NCBI GenBank assembly: GCA_947311785.1
Contig: CAMZLW010000010.1
Location: 1 to 62,897, forward strand
DNA from: an uncultured Ignavibacteriales bacterium
Lineage (GTDB): Bacteria > Bacteroidota > Ignavibacteria > Ignavibacteriales > Melioribacteraceae
Direction: 5' to 3'
DNA: 62,897 nt
Below are positions 58,112 through 62,769 of the stretch, in pieces. The stretch's first letter is position 1; every line of letters begins with the position of its first letter. A program made the position numbers and the translations under genes. A model generated the notes under the pieces. That model ran no database searches. It was not told the origin of the DNA and was given only the letters and a program-made list of their open reading frames with translations.

Positions 58112-58615
58112 TTATTCTTTGTCGAAGTCAATTTTTTTAGCAGATGAATAGCTATCTAAATCGTATTTAATAATTCCATTTGGTATAGGAAGTTTTCTAA
58201 TAGGAACATTTGCTTTTTTGAAAAAATCGGTAGCGAGGGTATCGTGATAGTCAGAGAATACAATTATTTCTTTAATTCCAGAAGCAACCAATGCTTTTGA
58301 ACAAGTGGTGCATGGCATATTTGTAACGTAAGCTGTTGCCCCTTTTGTACGAACTCCGTGTGAGGCACATTGTGCAATTGCATTTATTTCGGCATGGTTT
58401 GTTCTAACGCAATGGTTATCAACAATAATGCAACCATCATCTTCGCAGTGGGCATCGCCTGGAATAGAGCCATTATATCCTGTTGCTAAAATTTGTTTAT
58501 CTTTTACTAACACGCAACCAACGTGCATTCTTGGGCAAGTGGCACGTTCTGAAACTAACATTGCAACTTTTAAAAAGTATTCATCCCACGAGGGTCTTTT
58601 ATTTTTATTTGTCAT
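58112..58615 (-). CDS. dCMP deaminase
   Basis: It deaminates dCMP to dUMP, supplying thymidylate synthesis. Zinc ligands are in TNHAEINAIAQCA (His-Ala-Glu) and NMPCTTCSKALVASG (the two Cys). The length, 167 residues, fits the ComEB/DCD family. The tandem RNA-like element lies upstream on the same strand (its end is ~95 bases before the start codon). A TATATTTG hexamer-like motif 40 bases upstream could be its own -10. Confidence 0.92.
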   Translation of the reverse strand: MTNKNKRPSWDEYFLKVAMLVSERATCPRMHVGCVLVKDKQILATGYNGSIPGDAHCEDDGCIIVDNHCVRTNHAEINAIAQCASHGVRTKGATAYVTNMPCTTCSKALVASGIKEIIVFSDYHDTLATDFFKKANVPIRKLPIPNGIIKYDLDSYSSAKKIDFDKE

Positions 58616-58709
58616 TTCTTATAATCTCAAAGTGTTAAAGAATAATGGCAAATATAATCAAATAAAAAATAATTTGAGAATGTTTTGTAAAAAAGGGTGC
58701 TTTAAAAGA

Positions 58710-58794
58710 GGGAAGGCTGTCAAGGTAGAGGGCACAACCTTAACAGCCTGGTTTGTACAACAAAAAGTTTAACCTTCTTGTTGTAAACTTTTAT
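58710..58794 (-). ncRNA. Structured RNA candidate, unit 1 (of two tandem copies)
   Basis: On the minus strand, hairpin I is TACAACAA-GAAG / CTTT-TTGTTGTA (12 bp with a G-U at the GAAG/CTTT end; loop GUUAAA). A seven-base linker CAAACCA follows, then hairpin II GGCTGT-T-AAGGT / ACCTT-G-ACAGCC (12 bp with one G-U) around the invariant loop TGTGCCCTCT, then TTCCCTC. The fold matches unit 2 with compensating changes in both hairpins. I do not recognise it as a known RNA family. The 5' edge is set by the shared ATAAAAGTTTA. Confidence 0.55.
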
Positions 58795-58816
58795 AATAAA
58801 AAATTATTAAAAAAAA

Positions 58817-58900
58817 GGGAAGGCTACCAAGGTAGAGGGCACAACCTTAGTAGCCTGATGTGTTATAACAAAGAGTTGCCTCTCTGTTATAAACTTTTAT
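58817..58900 (-). ncRNA. Structured RNA candidate, unit 2 (of two tandem copies)
   Basis: On the minus strand, hairpin I is TTATAACA-GAGAG / CTCTT-TGTTATAA, with a GCAA (GNRA-type) loop. The linker is CACATCA, then hairpin II GGCTAC-T-AAGGT / ACCTT-G-GTAGCC with loop TGTGCCCTCT, then TTCCC and eight T, which could end transcription. It lies 80 bases after the histidine kinase stop. Unit 1 follows 22 bases later. Between the kinase and this unit a weak TTGAAC-17-TCATAA promoter candidate is seen. Confidence 0.6.
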
Positions 58901-58980
58901 CAATAATTATTAAGAGCAAAAACTTATGATGTAAAAGTAGTGAAGTGTTCAAAATAATGCAAGTAAAAAATGAAATATTT

Positions 58981-60210
58981 TTACTTTTTTTGTAAAATAA
59001 TTTGAAAAACGGTTCCTTCGTTTATAATTGAGCTTTTTATAAATATTTTTCCCTTGTGATAATCTTCTACAATTCGTTTGGTTAGCGAAAGACCAAGTCC
59101 CCATCCTCTTTTTTTTGTGCTATAACCAGGTCTAAAAATATCTTTTCTGTTTTTTATGTCAATTCCTTTGCCATTATCTGAAACATCTATATAAACATTG
59201 CTTACATCATCGGTAATTATAAATTGGATTATACCGTTTTTTATTTTAATTGCATCTAAGGCATTTTTAATTAAATTTTCGACAACCCATTCAAATAACG
59301 ATTGGTTTAGTGGAACAAGATAATTTCCTGATGAAATGATTTTAATTTCGGTTTTTGATTGAGTATTTGGAAGTCGTTTGTTAAAATACTCAACAACAGA
59401 TTCTACAACTTCAACTATATTAGTGTCAACAAGTTTTGGTTTTGAGCCAATTTTGGAAAATCGGTCGGCAATTTTAGTTAATCGAAGTAAATCGTTATTC
59501 ATTTCGTCTGTAATTTCTTCAACTTTATCGGCATTATTTTTATGAATCTTTAAAATTTCGTTCCACCCCATTAAACTTGATATTGGTGTTCCTAATTGAT
59601 GAGCAGTTTCTTTCGACATTCCAACCCAAAGATTGCTTTGTTCATTTTTTCTAACATAGCTAAAGCTGAAGTAAGCAATTATTATAAACATTATTGCAAA
59701 TATTATTTGCAAATAGGGATAGTAGCGTAGTTGAATAATTAGTGAGGAATTTCCAAAATAAATTTTACTTATTATTGTACTATCCTGACTATAAACAAAT
59801 ATTGGATTATTATATTCACTGTATTCTTCAATTTTTTTATTTATAAATTGCAGCTTTTGTGAATTTGACAATGTGGAATCAAGTTCCAAATTTCTTACTC
59901 TTTCACCAATTCCTTCCAACGAAACTGTGTTGTTAGAATCGGCAAGTATTAAAGGAAAGTCGATACGCTTTATTACATCAAGCAAAAATGTAAAATCTTT
60001 ATCTGAAGCCTCTAACTCTGCAACTTGCTGCAAACTGGACGCAAAAAGTTCTGCTACTTTTACTTCTCTTTTTTCAAGTTGGGAAATTAATGATTGTGTA
60101 TAAATATATGTGGAGAGTGCAATTATGGTTGCAAAAATAAGTAGAATAATTTTAATTTGGATGGAACCAGGTCCACCAGCCATTTTTTGTTTCATTTGTT
60201 TTGCTACCAA
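58981..60210 (-). CDS. Membrane sensor histidine kinase (Bacteroidota-type H-box)
   Basis: The protein has an N-terminal TM (~residues 18-40), an extracytoplasmic domain (~40-170), a second TM (~173-197), then an H-box with MSKETAHQLGTPISSLMGW, typical of Bacteroidota kinases. The HATPase part has VENLIKNALDAIKI and DVSDNGKGIDI, then the C-terminal KKRGWGLGLSLTKRIVED. No response regulator gene is adjacent. The signal sensed is unknown. It precedes the tandem RNA-like element on the same strand. Confidence 0.88.
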   Translation of the reverse strand: MVAKQMKQKMAGGPGSIQIKIILLIFATIIALSTYIYTQSLISQLEKREVKVAELFASSLQQVAELEASDKDFTFLLDVIKRIDFPLILADSNNTVSLEGIGERVRNLELDSTLSNSQKLQFINKKIEEYSEYNNPIFVYSQDSTIISKIYFGNSSLIIQLRYYPYLQIIFAIMFIIIAYFSFSYVRKNEQSNLWVGMSKETAHQLGTPISSLMGWNEILKIHKNNADKVEEITDEMNNDLLRLTKIADRFSKIGSKPKLVDTNIVEVVESVVEYFNKRLPNTQSKTEIKIISSGNYLVPLNQSLFEWVVENLIKNALDAIKIKNGIIQFIITDDVSNVYIDVSDNGKGIDIKNRKDIFRPGYSTKKRGWGLGLSLTKRIVEDYHKGKIFIKSSIINEGTVFQIILQKK

Positions 60211-60284: not shown

Positions 60285-61636
<1,352 letters not shown>

Positions 61637-61649
61637 AGATTTTGTAAAA

Positions 61650-61991
61650 CTATTTTTTGAAACTATCTGCCGCAGCGTCAACTGAATCGAAATTTTCAAA
61701 AATTGTTATAAGTTTTGTTATTACTAAAAGACTATTAATCTTTTCAGTTGCATTAGCTAATTTTAATGCACCACCCTTATTTTTAACTGATGTATAACCA
61801 CTAATAAGCATTCCAAGTCCTGTGCTGTTCATAAATTTTACACCACCTAAATCTATAATGATATTGTTTTTTTTCTCATCTAGTAGTTTACCTAAAAGGT
61901 CGTGAAACTCTTGAGCCTCTGGTCCACCCATTACATTACCTTTTATTGTAATTACAGCTGCATCATACTTTTCGCTTGTTTTAATACGCAT
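61650..61991 (-). CDS. STAS-domain anti-sigma factor antagonist
   Basis: This 113-residue protein is a single STAS domain with the phosphorylatable Ser in KFMNSTGLGMLISGY (~residues 52-66), as in SpoIIAA/RsbV antagonists. It could free a sigma factor from an anti-sigma partner. The gene is divergent from an ECF sigma factor gene with a 180-base gap, though ECF factors are usually controlled by other types of anti-sigma. No kinase or anti-sigma gene is visible nearby. Confidence 0.88.
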   Translation of the reverse strand: MRIKTSEKYDAAVITIKGNVMGGPEAQEFHDLLGKLLDEKKNNIIIDLGGVKFMNSTGLGMLISGYTSVKNKGGALKLANATEKINSLLVITKLITIFENFDSVDAAADSFKK

Positions 61992-62172
61992 TTTAATACC
62001 TTTATTTAATATTAATTTGTGAAATTACGATAACAAATTTAGTGAAAAGAAAACAAATATGAATATAAATAATTATATTATTTACTTACTTAAAAAAAGA
62101 ATTTGTAAAACAAACAGATATGTGGTTTTGTATTCAAATACAAAAAAATGAGAGTGGAACAAAGTTAATAAT

Positions 62173-62769
62173 ATGTCGTCTAAAAATTCCGAAGTAAATA
62201 AAAAAGATAAAAGTGCTGAACAAGAGGATAAAGATTTTATACTTATCCGTGAATTCATTGATGGTAATCAAGGTGCTTTTGAAAAACTGATGATGCTACA
62301 TAAAGATAAAGTTAGAAATTTAATTTTTCTTACTTTGAGTGATGGTGAATTTGTAGATGATATTTCGCAAGATGTTTTTATTAGTGTATATAAAAAATTG
62401 CATGAGTTTAGATTTGAATCTAAATTTTCAACTTGGCTTTTTAGAATTACAGTAAATAAATGTCGCGATTATCTAAGGAAGAAACGAGTAAGAAGTATTT
62501 TTGTTCCAATAAAAGATTCGCACGAAAACATACGTTCTACAGGAATACACGAGGATATTGATATACCTGGCTTAGTGCGAAAAGCAATTGCTCGGTTGCC
62601 CGATAAATTAAAGGTGCCTTTAGTTTACAGAGATATTGATGGATTTAGTTATAACGAAATTGCCGAAAAATTAGGTTGTGAAGTTGGAACTGTGAAATCG
62701 AGAATTTTTAGAGCACGCGAAACTCTTAAAGCATTACTAGAGCCTTACCAAAAAGAGATGAATAGATAA
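62173..62769 (+). CDS. ECF-family RNA polymerase sigma factor
   Basis: The protein has region 2 (AFEKLMMLHKDKVRNLIF, DISQDVFISVYKKLHEFR, FSTWLFRITVNKCRDYLRK) and region 4 (LPDKLKVPLVYRDIDG, YNEIAEKLGCEVGTVKSRIFRARE). There is no region 3, as expected for ECF (RpoE-like) factors. The N-terminal ~25 residues are charged. The window ends soon after, so any anti-sigma gene downstream is not visible; the next 128 bases hold only a dispersed repeat. Confidence 0.93.
   Translation: MSSKNSEVNKKDKSAEQEDKDFILIREFIDGNQGAFEKLMMLHKDKVRNLIFLTLSDGEFVDDISQDVFISVYKKLHEFRFESKFSTWLFRITVNKCRDYLRKKRVRSIFVPIKDSHENIRSTGIHEDIDIPGLVRKAIARLPDKLKVPLVYRDIDGFSYNEIAEKLGCEVGTVKSRIFRARETLKALLEPYQKEMNR

Follow-up and report, generated by a model that had tools for sequence, protein, structure and literature searches.

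A predicted tandem small RNA of Ignavibacteria from a previously uncatalogued family with C-rich motifs and a conserved histidine kinase neighbour

Introduction

CrcZ of Pseudomonas is a sigma-54-dependent small RNA (sRNA) under a two-component system; it is A-rich, much longer than the RNA described below, carries repeated binding motifs and sequesters Hfq/Crc. Among other described sRNAs, NfeR1 bears three redundant CCUCCUCCC motifs and silences ntrB, a histidine kinase mRNA (PMC10746234), while CcsR occurs in four tandem copies (PMC10253847). NmsR of Neisseria consists of two tandem, nearly identical sRNAs with anti-Shine-Dalgarno motifs (PMC5362039). In enterobacteria, GlmY, associated with QseE/QseF, is syntenic with a histidine kinase gene and has a sigma-54 promoter and also a sigma-70 promoter (PMC6075780); it acts by binding RapZ (PMC7073468).

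Concerning Ignavibacteria, a literature search returned no report of a regulatory RNA. The DNA considered here, called the window throughout, is a stretch of 62,897 nucleotides from an uncultured Ignavibacteriales bacterium of the family Melioribacteraceae (contig CAMZLW010000010.1). As judged from its homologues, a tandem element of the window is very probably a real, previously uncatalogued small regulatory RNA present in two copies. The sRNA family itself is new, while the kind of RNA is already known.

Results

Structure and orientation of the tandem element

The features of the window that are relevant to the element are the following.

58809..58897, minus strand: first-transcribed predicted sRNA unit, with hairpin I, linker, hairpin II and U-tract (fold; model R1, 78.6 bits, E 4.8e-21; model R2, E 1.2e-8)
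58863..58892, minus strand: hairpin I of the first unit, TTATAACAGAGAG/CTCTTTGTTATAA (fold)
58821..58856, minus strand: hairpin II of the first unit, invariant loop TGTGCCCTCT at 58834-58843
58704..58791, minus strand: second-transcribed predicted sRNA unit (R1, E 2.2e-20; R2, E 2.2e-8)
58756..58787, minus strand: hairpin I of the second unit, TTTACAACAAGAAGG/CTTTTTGTTGTA (fold)
58714..58749, minus strand: hairpin II of the second unit, loop TGTGCCCTCT at 58727-58736, then TTCCCTCTTTT
58981..60210, minus strand: histidine kinase (HisKA, HATPase_c; Pfam), conserved upstream neighbour of the RNA
60285..61553, minus strand: purA, second conserved upstream neighbour
58112..58615, minus strand: dCMP deaminase, downstream, inconstant neighbour

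The two units, of about 88 nt each and offset by 107, run on the minus strand from 58897 to 58809 and from 58791 to 58704, and fold into the same two hairpins, as the first-pass annotation had proposed. Each is made of hairpin I, a 6-base linker and hairpin II, with TTCCC and a stretch rich in T beyond it. Folding is more stable on the minus strand than on the plus strand (-37.1 versus -27.2 kcal/mol in the first unit and -35.1 versus -26.7 kcal/mol in the second), with an advantage of about 10 and 8 kcal/mol, respectively. The G-U pairs and the U-tract also occur on that strand only, and the minus-strand orientation claimed initially is in agreement with these data.

Hairpin II comprises 13 pairs (AGGCUACUAAGGU/ACCUUGGUAGCCU and AGGCUGUUAAGGU/ACCUUGACAGCCU); its covariation had been recognized correctly, and the first-pass annotation had spelled out six pairs. 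The loop UGUGCCCUCU is the same in both units, so that its described invariance holds. The linkers, CACATC and CAAACC, have 6 bases, and the earlier figure of seven is right only when the outer A-U pair is not counted as paired. TTCCC plus T8 comes after the first-transcribed unit, i.e., the one at higher coordinates, and the second unit ends in TTCCCTCTTTT.

Two models were used in the searches. R1, a model of hairpin II (alignment A2, 24 sequences), was built with the window's own copies, and its scores on the two units are therefore obtained by construction. R2 (alignment A4, 58 sequences) was built with the window's copies left out. The Rfam 15 covariance models gave no match over the RNA in the window, and no tRNA or tmRNA was found within the window. 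At relaxed E values (up to 5 or 1), Rfam returned nothing relevant in the homologues either, the sole overlap being ftsZ-DE, whose score of 22 bits (E 4.2) is below its cut-off of 72.2; a known family had been named beforehand as a possible refutation of novelty. The element almost certainly represents a structured RNA family absent from Rfam.

Covariation of the hairpins

In hairpin II, 12 of 12 pairs showed two-sided changes over the homologues (54 distinct sequences); A4 was partly assembled from copies found by hairpin search, which favours paired cells, although neither the two-sided changes nor the promoter were selected for. Two-sided cells amounted to 131, compared to 34.5 +/- 8.3 in shuffled alignments, and none of 500 shuffles reached 131, keeping in mind that shuffle tests are inflated by kinship among the sequences. 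When the register of the helix was slid, two-sided cells fell to 2–18. In the tandem copies, the helix of hairpin I was paired in 96.9% of the cells, with three pairs changed on both sides, and helices I and II both varied in step among the copies of the genus. The first-pass annotation had pointed to covariation in both hairpins from the two units alone; pairs are kept through two-sided changes in homologues of the genus, the family and the class. Given these compensated pairs, the tandem element is far more than a chance occurrence.

Distribution across Ignavibacteria

Homologues beyond the locus, the search for which had been recommended, were found at the levels of genus, family, order and class, with paired positions that change together. 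The R1 search recovered the RNA as single copies from many of the family's genera, and also from the order and from further families of the class. With R2, the RNA was detected in 57 of the 76 genomes of the window's family (48 of 55 when only good genomes were considered). Relatives also occur elsewhere in the order, in two families, and elsewhere in the class Ignavibacteria, in one family. In a sample of the phylum, 46 of 395 genomes were matched by R2, nearly all of the family or the order; the remaining matches were weak, and those beyond the class (E 0.001–0.01) were read as chance. A strict DNA pattern run on 84,980 species genomes gave 45 matches. About 40 of them, with the full architecture, fell in Ignavibacteria-type records (Ignavibacteria, Melioribacter, Stygiobacter, Ignavibacteriaceae and unresolved Bacteroidetes MAGs); the other five, in other phyla, were all devoid of context and were not accepted as occurrences outside Ignavibacteria. 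Four R1 matches (L070, L073-L075) were dropped because they had no C-rich motif, being plain palindromes or unrelated sequence. On this comparative evidence, the RNA family is specific to Ignavibacteria and close to universal in a single family of that class.

Some relatives depart from the common form. In the four genomes of genus g2 (G005-G008), the kinase is kept and the RNA is undetectable, a natural loss that is useful for target-gene comparison. The RNAs of the class-level family f13 (L066, L069, L076-L078) contain four C-rich stretches (CCCTTATCTGTGTTACCCTTATTGCCCTCC...GCCCTCC) that hardly vary between genera, and adjoin sufBD-type genes in some loci. Three relatives of genus g29 (L154, L162, L167) have one more hairpin upstream, whose loop is again GCCCTC (GGAATTGCCCTCGTTCC), which makes three C-rich motifs per RNA, and are without the sigma-54 element.

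Gene neighbourhood, promoters and ancestral form

Orthologues of the histidine kinase were present in 72 of the 76 family genomes, and the RNA lay directly downstream of the kinase in 49 of the 67 kinase loci with readable downstream sequence. A relative of the same kinase was a neighbour of the RNA in 20 loci, and purA in 19 (order purA-kinase-RNA). Throughout the five genomes of the window's genus, and in some others, the gene downstream is dCMP deaminase; in other genera it may encode an oxidoreductase or an amidohydrolase, be convergent, or be of yet another kind. Upstream of purA-kinase-RNA, two more genes are conserved across the family, one for a STAS-domain protein and one for an ECF-type sigma factor (61650-62769 in the window); both may be part of one signalling neighbourhood with the kinase and the RNA.

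Outside the genus, a -24/-12 element (TGGYAY-N5-TTG) was found in 35 of 45 kinase-linked RNAs (0.04 expected), 59–79 nt before stem II and between the kinase and the RNA. The transcripts predicted from this sigma-54 promoter measure 72–100 nt, and rpoN is present in 73 of the 76 family genomes. The older architecture seen in the relatives consists of TGGYAY-N5-TTG, a CCCTCCTTTAA stretch, hairpin II with a ...GCCCTC... loop, and a U-tract. As reconstructed from the relatives, the ancestral form is a single RNA of about 72–100 nt, flanked upstream by the conserved histidine kinase gene and downstream by a variable gene and in most cases preceded by a -24/-12 promoter. It was quite probably under sigma-54 control, and the RNA is very probably a free-standing sRNA. 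The earlier proposal that the two units are small RNAs of an unknown family is supported by the minus-strand orientation, the U-tracts, the promoters of their own in relatives, the Rfam result and the covarying homologues. The sigma-54 promoter, the ancestral second C-rich motif and the lineage-specific tandem duplication lay outside the view of the first-pass annotation.

Duplication and solo copies in the genus of the window

The core GGTTGTGCCCTCTACC was found in all five genomes of the genus as 2–3 tandem copies upstream of dCMP deaminase, and as solo copies elsewhere in four of the five; a reversed control pattern of the core gave no match in these five genomes. The solo copies combine a GNRA-capped hairpin I (GTTGTA-GAAA-TACAAC, GTTATC-GAAA-GATAAC) with hairpin II and occupy non-orthologous places beside unrelated genes. 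TTGAC precedes the core by 72–76 bases in all eleven solo copies examined, and TTGAC-N16-20-TANNNTT is present in seven of the eleven (0.06 expected). The second element, often TAAGTTT, resembles Bacteroidota promoters. Three solo copies (L029, L032, L020) are close to tRNA genes, a position that might give a clue to their insertion or dispersal.

By comparison with the relatives, the tandem array is a lineage-specific duplication that gives two or three GCCCUC loops per locus, and the window's copies are in a derived state, with no -24/-12 element, a hairpin I without C-rich motif and the loop kept. No TGGYAY-N5-TTG was found upstream of the window's own array. rpoN loss was considered as the cause of the promoter switch and discarded: rpoN is present in four of the five genus genomes, and loss of the sigma factor is therefore not the reason for the derived state. 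In the window, the region 58900-58975 contains TTGCAT and, downstream, a TAAGTTTTTG-like stretch, both of them conserved within the genus ahead of the tandem array; they may be its promoter.

C-rich motifs and candidate pairing

Two C-rich motifs are unpaired (mean unpaired probability 0.89 and 0.92): CCCUCC, in the 5' part and often inside hairpin I, and the GCCCUC loop of hairpin II. In A4 they read as CCCUCC/CCCUC/CCCC and GCCCU, with motif I as CCCTCC in 41 of 58 sequences and the loop as GCCCT in all 58; some genera have CCCUCG, CCCUCU or CCCCCC instead. Conservation of unpaired C-rich motifs while the stems that carry them change is typical of a seed or binding site, which is how the motifs are interpreted here.

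Motif I (CCCTCCTTT in many sequences) shares CCTCCTTT with the 3' end of 16S rRNA (GGATCACCTCCTTTCT), as read in five relatives, although the core common to both motifs, CCCUC, is offset from the exact anti-Shine-Dalgarno CCUCC. Shine-Dalgarno cores stood at the expected distance before 31–41% of ORFs, compared to 2–14% in control stretches; only about a third of genes have such a core. The exact complement of the genus loop (AGAGGGCAYA) occurred in five genomes at 16 sites outside the sRNAs, mostly inside frames and with no shared start region. No clear complementary site was found in the start region of the kinase itself.

Discussion

The sequence evidence is strong for structure, orientation, synteny and promoter class. 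Concerning function, the best overall explanation, towards which the data lean modestly, is that the window contains tandem copies of a trans-acting sRNA born under sigma-54, with CCCUC seeds for G-rich mRNA sites. The RNA would be made under a signal that activates an enhancer-binding protein, perhaps via the adjacent kinase; its seeds would pair with GAGGG/GGAGG-type sites at the translation starts of target mRNAs, and this would block ribosomes. Whether the pairing is of the anti-Shine-Dalgarno type is an evenly balanced matter. Against this model count the offset of the shared core CCCUC from CCUCC, the other loop and motif forms of some genera (CCCUCG, CCCUCU, CCCCCC), the Shine-Dalgarno core before only about a third of genes, the start region of the kinase and the exact loop complements, none of which marks a start shared by several genomes. 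In the window's genus, the RNA has been duplicated, with solo copies behind a TTGAC...TAnnnTT promoter, the 5' C-rich motif lost and the loop kept; duplication would raise the dose or restore several seeds per transcript.

A serious rival, even if an unlikely one, is a protein sponge, in which exposed CCCUC repeats would titrate a C-rich-RNA-binding protein (KH, RRM, cold-shock or Rho-like) under a sigma-54 signal, along the lines of CrcZ. Two to four near-identical unpaired C-rich motifs per molecule on freely changing stems, the addition of further units by duplication and the CrcZ-like sigma-54 promoter are all in agreement with it; moreover, exact loop complements yielded no mRNA target, and a protein recognizing CCCUC would give the same conservation as pairing. 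However, no candidate protein was identified, one motif per unit is enough in the window's genus, and the likeness of motif I to the 16S tail (CCTCCTTT) is directly explained by pairing. It is also conceivable, though doubtful, that a class-wide sigma-54 output RNA offers its repeated CCCUC loops to the ribosome or a dedicated RNA-binding protein, not acting as a classical antisense RNA, and that in one genus it was freed from sigma-54 and multiplied into a dispersed gene family.

A cis-acting element, either a leader or attenuator of the downstream gene or a 3' UTR or terminator of the kinase mRNA, is very improbable. The constancy of dCMP deaminase after the array in the genus, and its presence in some other genomes, would favour it, and hairpin II plus the U-tract is terminator-like. 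Nevertheless, the neighbour data largely refute it: the downstream gene is different or convergent in many genera, with the kinase constant upstream, and the RNA is therefore not a dCMP deaminase leader, which the first-pass annotation had offered as an option. Eleven solo copies with other, unrelated neighbours and their own promoter, the position of the sigma-54 promoter between kinase and RNA, and a 5-nt loop invariant across the class, not expected of a bare terminator, count against it too. The dispersal of the solo copies to non-orthologous places, some beside tRNA genes, could suggest a DNA-level element (REP/MITE-like palindromes of mobile elements, or protein-binding sites) instead of a functional RNA. 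This is scarcely credible for an element that is single-copy and syntenic in most of the family, shows a strand-consistent promoter with G-U pairs and U-tract on one strand, and conserves its loop without palindromic symmetry.

The preferred reading of a trans-acting sRNA concerns an RNA that is nearly universal in one family, with a clear promoter type and a conserved sensor-kinase neighbour. As it is present in the cultured strain Stygiobacter electus 09-Me, it is testable at once. It also offers a natural series in which an sRNA gene, at first single and regulated, switches to another promoter class and gives rise to tandem and dispersed siblings.

Most likely, by analogy, the RNA works like NfeR1, NmsR and GlmY, a likeness of kind that need not imply homology. 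NfeR1/alpha-r14 and cuckoo/CcsR of alphaproteobacteria are also short hairpin RNAs with an unpaired C-rich motif, in their case an anti-Shine-Dalgarno one, on freely varying stems, but NfeR1/alpha-r14/CcsR belong to another phylum, have sigma-70 or RpoH promoters and bear CCUCCUCCC in place of the CCCUC(C)/GCCCUC found here; the motifs read in A4 differ from CCUCCUCCC, and membership of the cuckoo/alpha-r14 group was rejected. NmsR resembles the array of the window as a pair of tandem sibling sRNAs, whereas it is RelA-controlled and unrelated in sequence, with no kinase synteny or sigma-54 promoter reported. GlmY is a precedent for a sigma-54 sRNA kept beside a kinase gene; however, it lies upstream of the kinase (here the RNA is downstream), has the response regulator adjacent and binds RapZ. 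To our knowledge, GlmY has no CCCUC loops. Finally, CrcZ/CrcY with CbrA/CbrB of Pseudomonas share with this RNA sigma-54 dependence and repeated binding motifs (see PMC8871633), and differ from it in that CrcZ is much longer and A-rich, without paired CCCUC loops.
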